Below are positions 14,343-33,173 of a stretch of DNA of 33,173 nt, in pieces. The notes under the pieces were generated by a model. The model was not told where the DNA came from and did no database searches. It saw nothing but the letters and a program-made list of their open reading frames with translations. Position 1 is the stretch's first letter. Every line of letters starts with the position of its first letter. The DNA is from a virus. The position numbers and the translations under genes were made by a program. The stretch spans positions 1-33,173 of the IMG/VR virus record IMGVR_UViG_3300034407_001577; one strand, written 5' to 3'.

Positions 14343-15126
14343 TGTCTATATGCTTTTTTTAATTCTTGTTGTTCTATATCTACTTTTTCTTTTTCAAATG
14401 CTAAATAATTTAAACACTGGTAGAGTGGAAGTTCGGTAACTGCATTGAAGTTTCTGACATCACCTTTAGCGAGTGCATAAATTGATTGATACCAGCCCCA
14501 TTTTTTTCCAAATGCATCTCTAGCTGTTGCATATCCTCTTTCATCAGATTTGCTTTCAAATATTTCGGTATAGCTCCCAGTAACTCCTTCCCTAAATCGT
14601 AAAAAAAAACCATTGAACTAATTGCTACATCTAATGGCATCTCTTTCATTAATTCTTGTGTTTCTTCTTTTACTTTATATGGTGCAATACCATACTTTTC
14701 TTTTGCCTTAAAATTAACTGGTCTATACAATACAGCCATAGCTTTATGCATTTTTTGCCAATCAGAAATATTAGTTTCAATATCTACATATTCACCAAGA
14801 GTAATATCATCAAGCTTTGGTATAAATCCCATATCTACATCTAACAAATCAAATCTTTGTATTAATTTAGGTTTCTCTTCAAATGCCTTATTTAATATTA
14901 CCAGTACTTTTTCATACTCTTTTAAAGGTATTCTACTAACATCTCTTAGTGAAACATTACAGAATATTTCTACAAGTTTCATGTTTAAGAAATCGTTTAT
15001 CTTGTCCTCATCTTCGGCATCTTCTGTTTTATTCTGCTCTATGACTTTCATATACTTTTGGTATTGCCAAAGTTTAATGTCAGATAGAGTTGTTGGTACT
15101 TCTAGTTCTATTTGTTTTAGTGCCAT
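14339..15126 (-). CDS. Tail assembly chaperone, long product by -1 ribosomal frameshift
   Basis: Ribosomes shifting by -1 at A AAA AAT (14506-14500) leave the zero frame after residue 209. They continue from TGG at 14500 for 53 codons to TGA at 14341-14339, giving about 262 aa. The extension begins WGWYQSIYALAKGDVRNFN and includes LPLYQCLNYLAFEK, which I recognise as the second-frame part of tail chaperones in Bacteroidota siphoviruses. It has no start codon of its own at a sensible place. The stop overlaps the next ATG as ATGA. This mirrors lambda G and G-T products, both needed in a fixed ratio for tail assembly. Confidence 0.8.
14410..15126 (-). CDS. Tail assembly chaperone, short (unshifted) product
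   Basis: 238 aa in the zero frame, beginning MALKQIELEVPTTLSDIKLW. Mostly helical with an acidic segment near residue 35. It has the size, position (first late gene, upstream of tail genes) and architecture of the lambda gpG analogue, which binds the tape measure during tail assembly. The last 29 residues, after the slippery site at 14506-14500, are replaced in the longer product by a well-conserved-looking extension in the -1 frame. It is the first gene after the operator-like repeats at 15227-15308. Confidence 0.8.
   Translation of the reverse strand: MALKQIELEVPTTLSDIKLWQYQKYMKVIEQNKTEDAEDEDKINDFLNMKLVEIFCNVSLRDVSRIPLKEYEKVLVILNKAFEEKPKLIQRFDLLDVDMGFIPKLDDITLGEYVDIETNISDWQKMHKAMAVLYRPVNFKAKEKYGIAPYKVKEETQELMKEMPLDVAISSMVFFYDLGKELLGAIPKYLKANLMKEDMQQLEMHLEKNGAGINQFMHSLKVMSETSMQLPNFHSTSV
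14500..14506 (-). promoter_or_regulatory. Slippery heptamer for -1 frameshifting, A AAA AAT
   Basis: On the minus strand the zero-frame codons are GAA AAA AAT GGG, giving the X-XXY-YYZ heptamer A-AAA-AAT inside a run of seven A. Both tRNAs can re-pair after sliding back one base. The -1 frame then reads AAA AAA TGG into an open frame of 53 codons. A GC-rich stretch (GGGGCTGG) follows at once; I did not establish a pseudoknot. Confidence 0.8.
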
Positions 15127-15171
15127 ATTATAAATAATAATTTAATTGTTTTTTGTACTCTACTTTATTCC

Positions 15172-15190
15172 AACTGAATATATGTCAGTT
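15172..15190. promoter_or_regulatory. Inverted repeat AACTGA-N7-TCAGTT upstream of the late operon
   Basis: AACTGA (15172-15177) and TCAGTT (15185-15190) are reverse complements separated by 7 bases. The left arm is part of TTCCAACTGA (15168-15177), which also occurs inside the promoters at 17874-17904 and 19814-19845. It lies 46 bases before the chaperone start, between the palindrome cluster and the gene, where a regulator or late promoter would act. No TAnnTTTG box is present here. Confidence 0.5.
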
Positions 15191-15214
15191 ATATATGTAA
15201 TATATATGTATTAT

Positions 15215-15308
15215 GTATATACTATGTAATACACTATGTATATATAATACACTATGTATATAATACACTATGCAATATAATACATTATGTAATATAATAC
15301 ACTATGTA
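15215..15308. repeat. Cluster of five palindromic repeats, TAATACACTATGTA, about 17-bp spacing
   Basis: Copies begin at 15227, 15245, 15261 (one change, TGCA), 15278 (one change, CATT) and 15295. A degenerate sixth copy lies around 15215-15228. The core TACA-CTA-TGTA is an inverted repeat. Spacings are 18, 16, 17 and 17 bp, not far from two DNA turns. The array lies between the 15335-15580 gene and the late structural operon, and the same element occurs at 27827-27887. Most likely operator or activator sites; iterons of an origin are an alternative. Confidence 0.85.
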
Positions 15309-15334
15309 ATATATATATAATATAAATTATCTGA

Positions 15335-15580
15335 CTATTTGTCGGTTGGGTTATGTTTATAGTAGTAGAATGTATATAATTCTATAATCTTATCACTCCA
15401 TTGTTTTAATCCATAAGGTTCTGGTGAACGTATTATTTTACCATTGTCATTAACCTCAACATAATATTCTCGTTGTGTCTTTGGCACTGCATATATCTTA
15501 ATGTTATTGTCTATACAAAAGGATATGTGCCTAAGATAATTTTCATCATAAGTTACAAGTTTCTTTTTACTGCGTGCCAT
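15335..15580 (-). CDS. Conserved-looking small phage protein, unknown function (81 aa)
   Basis: 81 aa, basic at the N-terminus (MARSKKKLVTYDENYLRHI) with FCIDNNIKIYAVPKTQREYY and a C-terminal aromatic helix. I recall similar proteins (YDENYL.HI.FCI.NNIKIYAVP) in other flavobacterial phages, unannotated. The gene stands alone between the two repeat regions: TATTRAATTYAT copies lie directly before its start (15583-15611) and the palindrome cluster directly after its stop. That placement makes it a candidate regulator of the late switch, but no DNA-binding motif is obvious. Confidence 0.7.
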   Translation of the reverse strand: MARSKKKLVTYDENYLRHISFCIDNNIKIYAVPKTQREYYVEVNDNGKIIRSPEPYGLKQWSDKIIELYTFYYYKHNPTDK

Positions 15581-15582
15581 AG

Positions 15583-15611
15583 TATTAAATTCATAAAGGT
15601 ATTGAATTCAT
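15583..15611. repeat. Two TATTRAATTYAT repeats before the 81-aa gene
   Basis: TATTAAATTCAT at 15583-15594 and TATTGAATTCAT at 15600-15611, starts 17 bp apart. They occupy the leader immediately upstream of the ATG at 15580 on the minus strand. The same motif is clustered at 18049-18096 and 29197-29274. Probably a protein-binding site. Confidence 0.7.
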
Positions 15612-15927
15612 AAGTAACTTACAAGTGTCATGTGGAAAGTATGTTGTGTAGAGAGAGTGGGGTAATATACACAGAGCGTTTGCAAATAGGGAGAGTACCC
15701 CTTTTTCTATAACCTATACATAACTTAAACTTAAAATAAGCTCATTTAAGAGCTTTTAATATTAAATTGAAGGGTAACTACCATAAAGGGTATGAAACTA
15801 GCTAGAAAGGTGCTTAAATTGCTTGTATTGGCTTGTTTGTAGCTGATTAAGAAAAGAAATATAGTTATTTACATTTTAATTAATCATAATTAACTGAATG
15901 TTAAGAATCTAACAAAATGTTTGATAT
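15612..15927. other. Longest non-coding stretch; possible control region, origin or small RNA
   Basis: About 316 bases without a supportable reading frame on either strand. The part 15625-15701 is purine-rich on the plus strand, unlike the rest of the genome. It holds GGGGTA (15659-15664) able to pair with TACCCC (15696-15701), which is followed by TTTTT, a terminator-like shape on the plus strand. A 6-bp hairpin AAGCTC/GAGCTT lies at 15738-15755. An origin of replication or a plus-strand small RNA are both possible; neither is shown. Confidence 0.4.
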
Positions 15928-15951
15928 AAAAAAACCCCCAATTAAAGGGGT
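15928..15951 (-). terminator. Rho-independent terminator of the 17.9-16.0 kb operon
   Basis: Minus-strand RNA has ACCCC (15951-15947), a loop of eight bases, GGGGU (15938-15934) and a run of seven U (15934-15928). It lies 43 bases beyond the last gene of the operon (stop at 15994). Confidence 0.82.
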
Positions 15952-17873: not shown

Positions 17874-17904
17874 CAAACATATAATAATATTTCCAACTGA
17901 CAAA
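17874..17904 (-). promoter_or_regulatory. Bacteroidota-type promoter of the 17.9-16.0 kb operon
   Basis: On the minus strand TTTG (17904-17901), 19 bp, then TATGTTTG (17881-17874), a full match to the Bacteroidota -33/-7 consensus TTTG/TAnnTTTG. The spacer contains TCAGTTGGAAAT, shared with the promoter at 19814-19845, probably a regulator site. Transcription should begin near 17868. Confidence 0.78.
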
Positions 17905-24287: not shown

Positions 24288-24317
24288 CAAAGTTAATAAA
24301 AGAACTGAATAAAACAA
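24288..24317 (-). promoter_or_regulatory. Bacteroidota-type promoter before the lipoprotein gene
   Basis: Minus strand: TTG (24317-24315), 19 bp, TAACTTTG (24295-24288), a full match to TAnnTTTG. Transcription would begin about 10-15 bases before the ATG at 24269. It lets the lipoprotein and the following methyltransferase be made independently of the upstream operon. Confidence 0.68.
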
Positions 24318-24499: not shown

Positions 24500-24907
24500 T
24501 TAGAATTTACATTTTTTGCAATTCCATTTTTTACCCATTTGATTTATGTACTCTTTAAAGTCTTTTGTGTCTTTATAATAAGTCCAAACTTTATTGTAAT
24601 ATATTCCAGAAACTCTACATTTCTCTAAGGGTATGTTTAAATCATCATCATTAAAATCGTGTTCTACTTTTAAAACTGCTGATTTATTGGTGTGCCAAGA
24701 ATCTGAAATTCTTTCAAGTAACAATTTTTGACCTGTTGGTATCTTGTTAAATTTATACTTAACCTCAATAAGAATTAAAACTTCATTGTCAAATTCCAAA
24801 ACAGCATCAATATCTGATGGGTGTAGCTTTCCGTTTTGAACGCCTGTAAAATCAATAACTTGTTTTACTTTTTTTCTGTTTCGGATTAAACTTTTGTTTT
24901 CAATCAT
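24500..24907 (-). CDS. PD-(D/E)XK nuclease-fold protein
   Basis: 135 aa from the ATG at 24907; an in-frame start at 24934 would overlap the upstream gene by 35 bases. Residues 1-25 are basic. Asp34 in SDIDAVLEF and Glu48-Val-Lys50 in LILIEVKYK form the nuclease core, followed by TGQKLLLERI, a typical Gln-containing helix. The Cys-rich tail KKWNCKKCKF may bind metal. Likely an endonuclease or a junction resolvase in DNA replication; the substrate cannot be deduced. Confidence 0.6.
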   Translation of the reverse strand: MIENKSLIRNRKKVKQVIDFTGVQNGKLHPSDIDAVLEFDNEVLILIEVKYKFNKIPTGQKLLLERISDSWHTNKSAVLKVEHDFNDDDLNIPLEKCRVSGIYYNKVWTYYKDTKDFKEYINQMGKKWNCKKCKF

Positions 24908-25304
24908 TATTATATTCTTTATAAACTCGCTCAAGTTTATTGTGTAAGTTATTCTTAAAACAAGACGAACAACTTGTTAAGCTCATTTTTTGGTGAAATA
25001 TTCTGTTATATATTCTAAGTAGTTTTTGTTGAGTTTGAGGGTGTACAGTAGGTTTTGCCTCAGTAAAATATTTGTCTAAATATTCATATTCATCTTCTGT
25101 TAAACATTCAGGTTTGTAATAAGGAAATAAATAATTTAATTTTTCCTTACGCTCTTCACATCCACAATCTTCTCCAAGTATCCATTTAGCTACTTTAGCT
25201 ATTCCTGTTTTTTCAAGTACCTTTTCAACTGTATCTCCTAGTCCTTTAGCTTTTGTATTTTTTGTACTCTTCTTTGCTTTCTTTTCTAATTTTTTCTTTG
25301 GCAT
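24900..25304 (-). CDS. Conserved-looking Cys-containing phage protein, unknown function
   Basis: 134 aa. A Lys-rich N-terminus (MPKKKLEKKAKKSTKNTKAK) leads to GLGDTVEKVLEKTGIAKVAK, then DCGCEERKEKLNYLFPY and a later SCSSC pair (Cys112, Cys115). The four or five Cys could bind zinc. I recall close relatives (GLGDTVEK..K.TGI, DCGC.ERKEKLN) in many Bacteroidota phages, always unannotated. The start overlaps the sigma-like gene by 59 bases in another frame, the longest overlap in this part. Confidence 0.7.
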   Translation of the reverse strand: MPKKKLEKKAKKSTKNTKAKGLGDTVEKVLEKTGIAKVAKWILGEDCGCEERKEKLNYLFPYYKPECLTEDEYEYLDKYFTEAKPTVHPQTQQKLLRIYNRIFHQKMSLTSCSSCFKNNLHNKLERVYKEYNND

Positions 25305-25815
25305 TTGTTAATGTATTAAATATTGAACTTAAACTTATTTTTGTCTCTTTACTAATATCTCGCATACTCATATCAGTGTTTAAATATAACTTAGTAAGCT
25401 TCTTATCGTACCAATACCACTCTTCAATTACACTTTCTATTTTATTGTACAACGCCTCTAAGTTAACTTTTTTTTTGTAATTATCATTATGTTCGTCAAT
25501 ATCAAAGGCAATTTGATTTATAATATAATTGTATTTTTCAGCATCTATATCTGAAAACAATACTGTTTTTTTATTTTTATTATAATTAGTAAACTTACTA
25601 TAATATAAGTTTCTTAAAGTAATGTATATATAAAATGTATTAATTTCAGTTTCATTATACATAATTCTTTTAATGTCTTTTGTATAATCGTACATTCTTA
25701 AATACATTTCTTGTACTAATTCATTTGAATCGTTATTATCTAATTTAAAACTCTTAGCCATATTTAACCACTCGTTATGCCTTTTTGCCAATATGTTAAG
25801 TATCTTAGAACTCAT
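25246..25815 (-). CDS. RNA polymerase sigma factor-like protein
   Basis: 189 aa. Residues about 25-70 resemble sigma region 2 (DSNELVQEMYLRMYDYTKDI, followed by FYIYITLRNLYYSKF). Residues about 140-180 resemble region 4 with a helix-turn-helix (NTDMSMRDISKETKISLSSI, then FNTLTNAKEKIRKE). The pattern is of a small ECF-type sigma-70 protein with an acidic linker. It could redirect host RNA polymerase to phage promoters, notably the late operon, which lacks a host-type promoter. Sequence similarity to sigma factors is weak in places, so the role is inferred. Confidence 0.62.
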   Translation of the reverse strand: MSSKILNILAKRHNEWLNMAKSFKLDNNDSNELVQEMYLRMYDYTKDIKRIMYNETEINTFYIYITLRNLYYSKFTNYNKNKKTVLFSDIDAEKYNYIINQIAFDIDEHNDNYKKKVNLEALYNKIESVIEEWYWYDKKLTKLYLNTDMSMRDISKETKISLSSIFNTLTNAKEKIRKESKEEYKKYKS

Positions 25816-26095
25816 TATTTAATATTATGTCTCTAAGTTTGTCAAATGAATTCACAACATAATAGTTTCCTTGCCATTCAGCTTGAAACTTTATTTCGTC
25901 TGGCGTTAATTTTTGTTGTGCAAGTGGCTTATCACCATCTTTAATTTCTATAAGATAATTGTTGTTATTATAGCCGACTATAATATCTGGTGCACCTTTG
26001 CCTAATTGATGAGTATGGAGGACAGAGCATCCTGCCTCTCTAATTTGAGAGACAATCTTTTTTTGATTAGCATCTACTCTTGCTCGTTTTCGCAT
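25805..26095 (-). CDS. VRR-NUC domain nuclease
   Basis: 96 aa, a stand-alone VRR-NUC domain: basic start (MRKRARVDANQKKIVSQI), GKGAPDIIVGYNNNNYLIEIKDG with Asp37, Glu50 and Lys52 as the catalytic set, then QQKLTPDEIKFQAEWQG and a final strand YYVVNSFDKL. Stand-alone phage VRR-NUC proteins are structure-specific (junction) nucleases. Directly follows the primase-helicase gene with a 22-base overlap. Confidence 0.85.
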   Translation of the reverse strand: MRKRARVDANQKKIVSQIREAGCSVLHTHQLGKGAPDIIVGYNNNNYLIEIKDGDKPLAQQKLTPDEIKFQAEWQGNYYVVNSFDKLRDIILNNEF

Positions 26096-27801
26096 CTGAT
26101 ATTATCTACTTCATCAAAGGGTGTTTGATTATTAAAATAATATCTGTTTGATTTTCTATGATATGTTATACCTTCAATATCTTGAGGATAACCTACCAAT
26201 TTTTGTTTCTTTATTTTCTGACTGCCAAATGTAACTTGAGTATTACTAAAATCTAAAGCTCTATTTGGTCTCCATACAAAAAGCACATTATCACTTTTAT
26301 CTGCAAATGTTCCACCACCTTTAATTGAATTTACATCTGGTTTTCTATACCTACCATTATCATCTTTTTGTGGTGTAACTTGGTGTGCAACTAAATGAAC
26401 TGATATTTTGTTTTCTACGGCAAACCTTTTAAGTTCACTCATAAACCTACTTATATATAAATCTTCTCTTTCACCTCGTTGCATCCTGTGTTGTACAGTG
26501 TTGTATGGGTCAATAATCAATGAACGTATGCCTTTTGTCTTAACTAAAAACTTAGCTCTTTCAAATATGTCCTCTAATTTATAACTTTTTTTTGGATATA
26601 TAATAAAAAAATGTTTTTTCATAAACTCCATGCCTTTTTTAAAGTCGCTTTCACTCATATAATTATTAGCATAAAAAGGGTCAGAGCTCTTGCCTATATA
26701 ACATTCTATTAAGTCATGGAAAAAATCATTTATTGGCATATTCTCTGGACTAAACACTGCAAACTTCCATCCGTCGTGAAATGCCTTTAGAACTGATAGC
26801 TGATTTAAAAACATACTTTTTCCTTCGTTTTGATAACCTGTCCAAATATTTACTTCACCATTTCTCCAAGTCCATGCCCTATCAATAGCTTCAATGTGCG
26901 TTGTAGAACCTCTCTCTTGTCCGTTTCTATAACCGTCTAACATACTATCGTATATATCACTAACATCAAATATACCTTCTACTTTAGGAACTCTTGCGTG
27001 TTTAAATCTATATTGTAAAGATTCTACGCCTTCATTAAGTAAAACTTCATTAGCGTCTTTATATGGGTTTGTATCTATTAATCTAATTTTTTCAGCACCA
27101 ATACGTCTTATAAGTTCCTCTTCTAAATACCTTCCGTTTTCGTCATTGTCAGTACATAAATAAACTACTTTAGCATTTTCAAATACTTCATAAGAGTTTG
27201 TTATACATTCTAATTTCTTATCTAAGTTTTTATCTCTTACGTTTGGAGCACCCATATTTACAGAGGTATGCCAAGTAAAACCTGCAACCTCCCAACTAAG
27301 CGAATCAAATTCACCTTCACATAATATAACAAAATCTTGATTTACAACCCTATCGTAATTAAATATTATAGGTTCTCCATTTTTTGACTGAGTAAAAGTT
27401 TTATTATCAATACCTCTTGTTTTATAATTTACAAGCTCATTGTTTTTAAGATATGGAAATACAATACTTTTGCCGTCTTTAGTAGTTGTAATTTTATTGT
27501 TTTCAATAACCTCATTTGTTATGCCTCTATTGTTAAGAAACTTAATAGCACTTGAATTTATTTTCTGTAAATTATTTGTTGTTGGTTTAGTATATATTCT
27601 TTGTTGTATCATATTGTTGTTAGGGTTAACAGAACCGTTCCAACCACAATGGTGGCAGTGATATAGTCCATCGTCTAGGTTAATTGATAAAGATGTGTCT
27701 CTTTTATTTTTCCTAGTATGACTACATTTTGGACACTTTACTTTCTGTTGAGAGTATTTGCCTTTAGGTACGATTCCAATTTTTTCAAAGTTTTCTTGCA
27801 T
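26074..27801 (-). CDS. Primase-helicase (Twinkle/T7 gp4-like)
   Basis: 575 aa from the ATG at 27801. The in-frame GTG at 27834 lies inside the operator repeat and is rejected. Zinc ribbon with Cys23, Cys26, Cys49 and Cys52; TOPRIM primase with Glu161 (ILCEGEFDS) and CTDNDENG at 216-223; RecA-like DnaB helicase with Walker A GYQNEGKS at 321-328 and Walker B LIIDPYN with Asp430. It unwinds the fork and makes primers. Its leader carries the palindromic repeats 27827-27887, so its expression is probably controlled together with the late operon. No DNA polymerase gene is present, so host polymerase must follow it. Confidence 0.9.
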   Translation of the reverse strand: MQENFEKIGIVPKGKYSQQKVKCPKCSHTRKNKRDTSLSINLDDGLYHCHHCGWNGSVNPNNNMIQQRIYTKPTTNNLQKINSSAIKFLNNRGITNEVIENNKITTTKDGKSIVFPYLKNNELVNYKTRGIDNKTFTQSKNGEPIIFNYDRVVNQDFVILCEGEFDSLSWEVAGFTWHTSVNMGAPNVRDKNLDKKLECITNSYEVFENAKVVYLCTDNDENGRYLEEELIRRIGAEKIRLIDTNPYKDANEVLLNEGVESLQYRFKHARVPKVEGIFDVSDIYDSMLDGYRNGQERGSTTHIEAIDRAWTWRNGEVNIWTGYQNEGKSMFLNQLSVLKAFHDGWKFAVFSPENMPINDFFHDLIECYIGKSSDPFYANNYMSESDFKKGMEFMKKHFFIIYPKKSYKLEDIFERAKFLVKTKGIRSLIIDPYNTVQHRMQRGEREDLYISRFMSELKRFAVENKISVHLVAHQVTPQKDDNGRYRKPDVNSIKGGGTFADKSDNVLFVWRPNRALDFSNTQVTFGSQKIKKQKLVGYPQDIEGITYHRKSNRYYFNNQTPFDEVDNIRCENEQE

Positions 27802-27826: not shown

Positions 27827-27887
27827 TAATACACTATGTAATATAATACACTATGTATTATTTATTTCTATAATACACTATGTATTA
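27827..27887. repeat. Three palindromic repeats TAATACACTATGTA before the primase-helicase
   Basis: Copies begin at 27827, 27844 and 27871 (17 and 27 bp apart). The last two are perfect 17-bp palindromes, TAATACA-CTA-TGTATTA. The element is the same as in the 15227-15308 cluster. The last copy includes the stop codon of the winged-helix gene. AACTGACA follows at 27893-27900; its complement TGTCAGTT flanks the other cluster. Confidence 0.85.
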
Positions 27888-28190
27888 CATACAACTGACA
27901 TTTTTAGCATCTGGACTAACATAAATCTTACGCTCTTTACCGTCGTTTCCTAAGCTTTTTGTAACTCTTTTTATATATTCTTTGTTTTCTAAGTTCTTTA
28001 ATATTCTATATAAAGTTCTATCGTTTAAGTTTAATGCCATACAAATACTTTCATTTGAGGCATAACAATAACCTTTTTTAATTGATAGTGAATCTATATA
28101 TGATAATACAGTGGCTTCTGATATTGATAAATTTGTATTCATAAATGCTAAATTAATGTTAACGTATTTTGTGTTTTTTCTTTGTGTCAT
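27885..28190 (-). CDS. Winged-helix DNA-binding protein
   Basis: 101 aa. The fold-defining part is SISEATVLSYIDSLSIKKG, then ASNESICMALNLNDRTLYRI and LKNLENKEYIKRVTKSL, a helix-turn-helix of the HTH_36/replication-initiator type with a wing near GNDGKERKIYVS. Proteins like this are replication initiators or regulators. Its gene ends exactly at the palindromic repeats that precede the primase-helicase, so it is the best candidate for the protein that binds them, an inference from adjacency. Confidence 0.75.
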   Translation of the reverse strand: MTQRKNTKYVNINLAFMNTNLSISEATVLSYIDSLSIKKGYCYASNESICMALNLNDRTLYRILKNLENKEYIKRVTKSLGNDGKERKIYVSPDAKNVSCM

Positions 28191-29086: not shown

Positions 29087-29117
29087 CAAACATATATATA
29101 AAAAATGTCATGTGCAA
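29087..29117 (-). promoter_or_regulatory. Bacteroidota-type promoter of the replication operon
   Basis: Minus strand: TTG (29117-29115), 20 bp, TATGTTTG (29094-29087), a full -7 match. It follows the terminator at 29128-29160 and precedes the ERF gene. Since the ATG is at 29082, transcripts would begin at or within a few bases of the start codon (leaderless). Confidence 0.65.
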
Positions 29118-31712: not shown

Positions 31713-33173
31713 CTAATTATTTATTTGAGTTTTTAATAGTTCTATTTCTGCTTTTAATTCTTGTATTGCTTTTAATAAAACAGGGATTGTTTCGGTATAT
31801 TTCATTCCCAATAATCCTTCGTCATCTTTATTAATTATTGGAGCAAAATCATTTTCCCAATCTTGAGCAATAAAACCTATTTTTTTAACTTTAGTTTTAT
31901 CAGATTTTAAATTATATTCTACACATCTATAATCTTTTATTTTATCTAAAACATTTTCTAAAGGTTTAATATTTTCTTTTAAAATTTCATCAGATTGAGC
32001 AGACCAAGCTGTGTCTCCACTTGCCATAGTAACACCAGTATTTGCTTGATTAATAATATATAATCTATTGGCAGATGTGACATCAAAATTCCATCTTTGA
32101 CCAGCAGTTGTATTTGAAGAATTTCTTAAGAAAATATGGTTACCAGTTTTCTCAATAGTTAATCCATTAGAACTTACAGTAGTTGTTCCAATTTTAACTT
32201 CCCCCACACTTGTAATACGCATTCTTTCTGTTAATGCAGTATCGCTTGTTGAAGCTCGTGTACTAAACGCTAAATCTCCAACACCTTGTAAAACTCCATT
32301 TTGTAATAATGATTTTATTGATGCTTGTGGCTTTGTGTTACCACTATCATTTACAGCTCCAAATAATAAGCAACCACCTGCATTAAATGAATTTTGATTT
32401 GAACTTAATGATAATGTACCTCCAGTGTAGCCTGAATCACTTATAGCAGATGTTAATTGCCCTGTGCCATATATTTCATTTTGCACTCTAGGATTAGCAG
32501 TTCCGATTCCTATGTTAGCACCTACTAGATTTAATAAATTACCTCCTCCTGTTGTATAATGATATACTGCATCAACACTATTAACATAAGTAATAGCCGC
32601 TCTTTCAATTCCAGATGTATTTAAAAATCTAACCTGTGAATTTCCAGAAACATTAGTACTTTGTAATGTTATACCATTGTTTCCAGCACTAGTTGCTTTA
32701 ATATGAAGGAGTTGTGTTGGTGATGTTTCTCCAATTCCTACGTTTCCTCCAGAAGTTATATTTAAAAGATTTGAAGCGTCGTGAGTTTTAAAAGATAATA
32801 TATCTGAATTTGAACCTTCAACACCCATAAACCAGTCTCTAGAATCATTAGCTATTTTTATATAAACATTAGCGTCTGTACTTGCATCTCTAATATGTAA
32901 TTTTTCAGCAGGTGAAGTAGTTCCTATTCCTACGTTTCCTGTTGGCATAGTAACTTGACCATCATTTCTACAGGCAAGAATAGCATCTGTATTTTCATTA
33001 TAAGCAATAAAAGCATAATTAGAACTTGTATTGTCTGAACCTTCAGTAGATAATCTTGAATAAGAATAAGGCGTTTGACCTATTCCTATGTTCCCAGAAC
33101 TGTCTATACGCATTCTTTCGTGACCTGCATTATAAAATTGCATTACTCCAGACGTATTGTTTAAAACTAAAGC
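31713..33173 (-). CDS. Tail fibre protein, C-terminal part with S74 intramolecular chaperone
   Basis: The frame is open to the right edge, so the N-terminus is missing; the first Met at 33143 is internal. About 487 codons are present. The shaft has repeated phrases such as RMRIDSSGNIGIG, GNVGIGTTSPAEKL and GNVGIGETSPTQLL, a periodic beta-helix-like pattern. The C-terminal 110 residues are an S74 chaperone of autocatalysis: SDEILKENIKPLENVLDKI with the catalytic Ser/Asp-type SDE...KENI motif, then KKIGFIAQDW and a terminal helix. It trimerises the fibre, then is cut off. Likely the second half of the gene at 1-986. Confidence 0.85.
   Translation of the reverse strand, partial: ALVLNNTSGVMQFYNAGHERMRIDSSGNIGIGQTPYSYSRLSTEGSDNTSSNYAFIAYNENTDAILACRNDGQVTMPTGNVGIGTTSPAEKLHIRDASTDANVYIKIANDSRDWFMGVEGSNSDILSFKTHDASNLLNITSGGNVGIGETSPTQLLHIKATSAGNNGITLQSTNVSGNSQVRFLNTSGIERAAITYVNSVDAVYHYTTGGGNLLNLVGANIGIGTANPRVQNEIYGTGQLTSAISDSGYTGGTLSLSSNQNSFNAGGCLLFGAVNDSGNTKPQASIKSLLQNGVLQGVGDLAFSTRASTSDTALTERMRITSVGEVKIGTTTVSSNGLTIEKTGNHIFLRNSSNTTAGQRWNFDVTSANRLYIINQANTGVTMASGDTAWSAQSDEILKENIKPLENVLDKIKDYRCVEYNLKSDKTKVKKIGFIAQDWENDFAPIINKDDEGLLGMKYTETIPVLLKAIQELKAEIELLKTQINN

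Follow-up and report, generated by a model that had tools for sequence, protein, structure and literature searches.

Gene organization and conservation of the locus

The DNA analysed, hereafter the window, is the whole 33,173-nt stretch of the virus record IMGVR_UViG_3300034407_001577 (positions 1-33,173), in which nearly all genes lie on the minus strand. Following that strand, a host-type promoter (29117-29087) precedes genes for ERF, a small protein, a winged-helix protein, a primase-helicase, a VRR-nuclease and the sigma-factor-like protein under study; a Cys-containing protein, an exonuclease, the terminase, small genes, a terminator, an 81-aa gene and, from 15126 on, the late operon complete the order. 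The genes considered here are:

27885-28190, minus strand: winged-helix (HTH_36) protein, replication-initiator-like (PF13730, 2e-10; phrog_428, 6e-14)
26074-27801, minus strand: primase-helicase (Toprim and DnaB_C), heading the operon that carries the sigma gene
25805-26095, minus strand: VRR-NUC/Holliday-junction-resolvase-like nuclease, upstream neighbour of the sigma gene
25246-25815, minus strand: ECF-type sigma-factor-like protein of 189 aa (region 2, residues ~1-78; region 4, residues ~119-180)
24900-25304, minus strand: small Cys-containing protein, its gene overlapping the sigma gene at the latter's 3' end (phrog_32048, 1.9e-8)
15335-15580, minus strand: conserved gene of 81 aa, phrog_5945-like, immediately upstream of the late array
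14410-15126, minus strand: first gene of the late (structural) operon, phrog_32199 family (2e-20)

The sigma gene was present in all 14 related records of at least 26 kb that were searched, and was missing from shorter fragments only. The winged-helix protein was found in all but two of these 14 records, both of which lack it because they begin too close to its expected place. Orthologues of the first late gene stand behind an array in relatives, and those of the Cys-containing protein sit beside the sigma gene. The latter protein displays conserved Cys pairs (GEDCGC and CSSCF), and its gene overlaps the sigma gene by 59 bp; it may be a partner of the sigma factor or an anti-sigma factor. No gene was recognised as coding for an anti-sigma factor. 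The primase-helicase starts at an ATG at 27801, and an alternative GTG at 27834 falls within a repeat array described below.

Tail-fibre-like open reading frames at 1-986 and 31713-33143 run into the ends of the window and are out of frame when simply joined; the window is probably a circular map cut inside a tail-fibre-like gene, with some bases missing. In one relative (L202-L203, a 37967-base contig) the start of the late operon occurs twice, 36076 bases apart, as a direct overlap, which suggests a circular or circularly permuted map of ~36 kb. The ends of many related contigs cluster in a variable spacer, 660-780 bp before the late operon and equivalent to ~15.8-15.9 kb of the window. A cos site was rejected as the origin of these clustered ends: their sequences differ, and they are therefore probably assembly breaks.

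A divergent family of ECF-type sigma factors

Taken alone, the window protein gave weak matches to Sigma70_r4_2 in Pfam (E 0.09) and to phrog_1740, 'RNA polymerase sigma factor' (E 1e-4, residues 10-184). Relatives were gathered stepwise, first from close loci (38 viral loci) and then from more distant ones by profiles, which numbered in the hundreds (406 and 403 stretches), and 59 members with 37-87% identity to the window protein were aligned. All 59 matched the NCBIfam sigma70-ECF model (TIGR02937; best 4e-12, spanning regions 2 and 4) and the NCBIfam GFO_1088 ECF family, and 58 matched the Bacteroidetes ECF subfamily TIGR02985 (best 5e-14). The Pfam models Sigma70_r2 and Sigma70_r4_2 were matched by 17 (best 9e-4) and 29 (best 6e-5) members, respectively, and phrog_1740 and phrog_1190, phage sigma families of broader scope, were also matched. 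The window protein itself aligns with TIGR02937 over residues 13-179, covering both regions, at 22.7 bits, which is below the curated cut-off of 42.9, an annotation threshold rather than a biological feature. By homology it is a divergent relative of the ECF family whose match is not annotation-grade.

The region-4 helix and, in region 2, the core-binding stretch LVQxMY rank among the most conserved parts of the protein, and a WYWYD stretch in region 4 is invariant in the phage family. A match to phrog_7545 ('HNH endonuclease') covers only the helix-turn-helix (136-183) and was rejected as a shared HTH.

The original prediction had described a small protein with sigma region 2 and region 4 helix-turn-helix patterns, and had proposed structure prediction and comparison with ECF sigma factors as a check. 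An AlphaFold2 input of 15 similar sequences gave a pLDDT of 45, and the 59 diverse sequences were used instead. The resulting model (mean pLDDT 80, pTM 0.43) comprises two helical domains and an uncertain linker over 189 aa, with region-4 helices at 151-158 and 162-179 and no region 1.1 or 3, as in ECF (group 4) sigma factors. Foldseek retrieved from the PDB, as its first 24 matches, 23 ECF sigma factors or their complexes and one RNA-guided transcription complex; E. coli sigma E, SigL, AlgU, SigH and SigW were among the fold matches (prob 0.99-1.00). The best E-value was only 2.4e-3 and the global TM ~0.3, the latter being low because the model leaves the two domains unplaced relative to each other. 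Matches among the predicted viral structures of BFVD were phage Sigma70-ECF proteins, and PDB sequence searches with the protein or its profile gave no useful match. The NCBIfam, AlphaFold2 and fold results bear out the predicted architecture, and we regard the ECF-type sigma homology of the 25246-25815 product as established with high confidence. Core RNA polymerase binding and promoter-specific initiation are its predicted role.

A sigma-like fold might instead serve a late activator or antiterminator of the RinA/ArpU or Q type, and antitermination Q families were indeed matched weakly by a few of the 59 members (phrog_79 by five, PF06530 by three). However, ECF models match every member with far better scores, and region 2, expected to be absent from a protein of that type, is present and conserved with its core-binding motif. 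We consider this reading highly improbable.

Palindromic arrays and a conserved element upstream of the late operon

Four sequence features stand out at the two operons of interest:

27827-27887, no strand: second array, with TACATAGTGTA(TTATAT) in three copies, lying between the genes for the winged-helix protein and the primase
15322-15350, plus strand: E', an inverted copy of E, at the other edge of the first array
15227-15311, no strand: first array, five TACATAGTGTA-type palindromes with a 17-bp period, upstream of the late operon
15169-15197, minus strand: element E, 29 bp, TATATnTATnTGMCATAnAGnCAGTTGnA, candidate late core promoter/start region

The palindromes are far beyond chance (15 matches observed, 2.9 expected), and outside the two arrays TACATAGTGTA(TTATAT) has only two scattered matches, each with one mismatch. 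Both arrays immediately precede the first gene of an operon; an Rfam search gave no match. The repeat unit differs between phage lineages, being TACATARAGTA in clade B, TACAWTGTA in C, TACATGTTA in D1, GATACATATT in D2 and TACACTWAGTGTA in F, and is common to both arrays within a genome. When 8-mers shared between primase and late arrays were counted across six lineages, the own-genome diagonal scored 150, the best of 720 permutations. By this measure little or no sharing was seen in one clade-A genome (G016) and in several more distant lineages (G021, G023, G024, G032, G033 and G037), so that the matched-array rule is demonstrated solely for the nearer family members.

Element E was found by phylogenetic footprinting in the interval that separates the array from the late start codon. 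As an ungapped 29-bp block it is conserved across 37 distinct sequences, the late proteins of the phages concerned being as little as ~48% identical, and its spacing from the late start codon hardly varies (70-82 bp). A genome-wide matrix scan of the window ranked 15169-15197 first, at 27.7 bits, the next site scoring 16.0. E remained the top site when the matrix was built without its clade (18.4 bits); shuffled maxima for that matrix were 13.2 +/- 2.5 and the largest of 60 reached 20.2, so that the position of E, not its raw score, is what is significant in the clade-out scan. E' is the second-best site in both scans, and in distant lineages it is as strong as E. It faces backwards, which is odd for a simple promoter, and two relatives (L364 and L367) keep the sigma gene and E' while E is missing at the expected place. 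E was not found at the primase operon, and it is unlike any standard ECF -35/-10 pair. A distinct late promoter read by the sigma protein had been predicted near 15130-15220; E coincides with that interval, and its recognition by the sigma protein is plausible.

An RNA hairpin in E was rejected, only the inner pairs being well kept (71% of cells paired), and E was accordingly handled as DNA, an element containing a short dyad.

Candidate readers of the arrays

At matched primase identity, a change of repeat unit goes with a winged-helix identity lower by 9-13 points; whole-sigma identity shows no consistent drop, and sigma region 4 alone is ~10 points lower in distant bins and 1-2 in near bins. 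Judged on these identities the repeat unit tracks the winged-helix protein better than the sigma factor, a result that constitutes support rather than proof because genome pairs are not phylogenetically independent. Sigma region 4 is a less likely reader of the palindromes, since its helix, SLSSIFNTL or TLSSIFNTL, hardly varies over at least five repeat units, and the winged-helix protein (27885-28190) is more probably their best candidate reader. The palindromes had been proposed to help the sigma factor; they are real, and more probably belong to the winged-helix protein.

A serious rival to operator function is that the arrays and the E/E' pair are replication origins, with iterons and an AT-rich melting region bound by the winged-helix protein as initiator; the late genes would then be read from elsewhere, and the sigma factor would serve other promoters. 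The winged-helix protein matches phage replication-initiation families, its gene adjoins the second array as repeats at an origin adjoin an initiator gene, the palindromic arrays are iteron-like and accompanied by TATATATA stretches, and E and E' are arranged symmetrically. On the other hand, the arrays precede the first genes of operons exactly, as operators would, and E keeps its nearly fixed spacing from the late start codon. Neither array shows a switch in GC or AT skew in seven genomes, a test made weak by one-strand coding. We judge an origin in place of a regulatory region to be rather unlikely; the inverted pair and the initiator-like winged helix nevertheless leave room for origin function.

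Host-type promoters and transcription into the late region

The flavobacterial promoter consensus includes a TAnnTTTG box (PMC9723704). Consensus and terminator scans gave the following sites:

29087-29117, minus strand: host-type promoter before the early ERF operon
24288-24317, minus strand: host-type promoter before a lipoprotein-like gene
17874-17904, minus strand: host-type promoter before a small gene
15934-15951, minus strand: intrinsic terminator closing the upstream operon
15594-15624, minus strand: near-host promoter TTG-N20-TACCTTTA, before the 81-aa gene and ~470 bp upstream of the late operon

On the coding strand, TTG-N-TAnnTTTG occurs at nine sites, compared with 3.4 +/- 1.8 in shuffled sequences, whereas sites from a generic TTGACA/TATAAT scan were no commoner than in shuffles. 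Four host-type promoters had been claimed originally; three sites, not four, are counted as convincing, since they stand just upstream of genes. The claim that no such promoter precedes 15126 or 27801 also agrees with our scans, which detected no TAnnTTTG -7 box in the 420 bp preceding the late operon or the primase. The late operon can be said to lack a host promoter in its immediate upstream region only, because the conserved near-host promoter at 15594-15624 had been missed.

This promoter is kept in ~30 distinct related sequences, and in clade C a full TAnnTTTG box, TATATTTG, stands at its place before the 81-aa gene. At 15600-15650, before the 81-aa gene, relatives share the conserved stretch TTTCCATCTGMCA, which on the other strand is partly E-like. 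The terminator at 15951-15934 parts the late region from upstream transcription, and no terminator-like site was found on the coding strand between the 15594-15624 promoter and 15126, so that this promoter could feed the late operon. Host sigma might then transcribe the late genes from there through the 81-aa gene, the phage sigma factor mainly redirecting or competing for host RNA polymerase. Such a scheme does not account for the retention, across lineages, of the array and E in the interval separating the 81-aa gene from the late operon, and in clade A the box is off consensus at its last base; we consider it improbable.

Comparison with known systems

T4 and SPO1 are the classical cases of phage sigma factors that drive late genes, and the proposed role of the window protein, recruiting host core polymerase to phage genes, resembles that of T4 gp55 and SPO1 gp28/gp34. 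These late and middle sigma factors are essential, and phage sigma factors have been surveyed (PMC9429907). A check of family names among the Pfam, PHROGs and NCBIfam matches of the 59 members found neither the T4 gp55 nor the SPO1 gp28/gp34 families, and the window differs in being from a small Bacteroidota phage with a control region made of an array plus an element. With cellular ECF sigma factors (E. coli sigma E, AlgU, SigW, SigH; TIGR02985) the protein has regions 2 and 4, fold and profile in common, but it is phage-encoded, and its putative target is unlike GGAAC/CGT-type ECF promoters.

The cultured Nonlabens (Persicivirga) phage P12024S, with P12024L, offers a close parallel (35.7-kb phage, Bacteroidota host). 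P12024S carries a VRR-NUC gene (gp32), sigma-like gp33, gp34 and a phrog_32048-like gp35 in the same neighbourhood, with gp32 and gp33 ordered as in the window; gp35 is 34% identical to the Cys-containing protein at 24900-25304. Annotated as hypothetical, with 'Sigma-70 region 2' only, gp33 is an ECF sigma factor by NCBIfam and matches the profile of the window sigma family (96%, E 3.5e-9). In contrast, it has no pairwise tblastn match to the window sigma protein, and scans of P12024S gave neither E nor a palindromic array. Among named phages, the closest primase-helicase (50%) belongs to Tenacibaculum phage JQ, whose gene order is also similar, but which has no sigma gene and no array upstream of the primase.

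A model for late-gene expression

A sigma factor in a phage is of a known kind, and the syntenic gene of P12024S is already on record. The literature searched contained no late-promoter work on such phages and no late sigma system worked out for small Bacteroidota phages, nor a sigma factor combined with an inverted conserved element and with lineage-specific arrays that change in concert.

Three things are inferred here: binding of the arrays by the winged-helix protein, recognition of E by the sigma factor, and an early-middle-late order of expression. The winged-helix protein (27885-28190) would be made early, from the early host-type promoter, and would bind the palindromic arrays, the primase/sigma operon being switched on first. 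The sigma factor would be made with that operon in mid infection, and late in infection it would guide host RNA polymerase core to the structural operon, with a start at or near E (15169-15197), the winged-helix protein acting with it there. Pairing the conserved reader with the conserved site, and the variable reader with the variable sites, is the simplest assignment, hence sigma with E and the winged helix with the arrays.

The link from the sigma factor to the late operon is plausible, with about an even chance of holding, and the full cascade, in which the winged-helix protein acts through the arrays on the primase/sigma and then the late operon, is in our view evenly poised between right and wrong. 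In its favour, the cultured relative JQ, without a sigma gene, is also without an array before its primase. Against it, cultured P12024S has the sigma gene but shows no E or array in scans, and the conserved upstream host-like promoter could supply the late operon. More tentatively, and with some doubt on our part, a late switch with two readers may be widespread in marine Bacteroidota phages: a slow-changing ECF sigma factor would read the inverted 29-bp pair, and a faster-changing winged-helix protein would read arrays whose unit has been replaced repeatedly, in concert at two sites.

Because the cultured relative P12024S carries the syntenic gene, the function of the sigma factor is open to a bench test. 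The arrays constitute a natural experiment in which a phage regulator and its operators would have changed together, and for many uncultured genomes E offers a specific hypothesis of where the late promoter lies.
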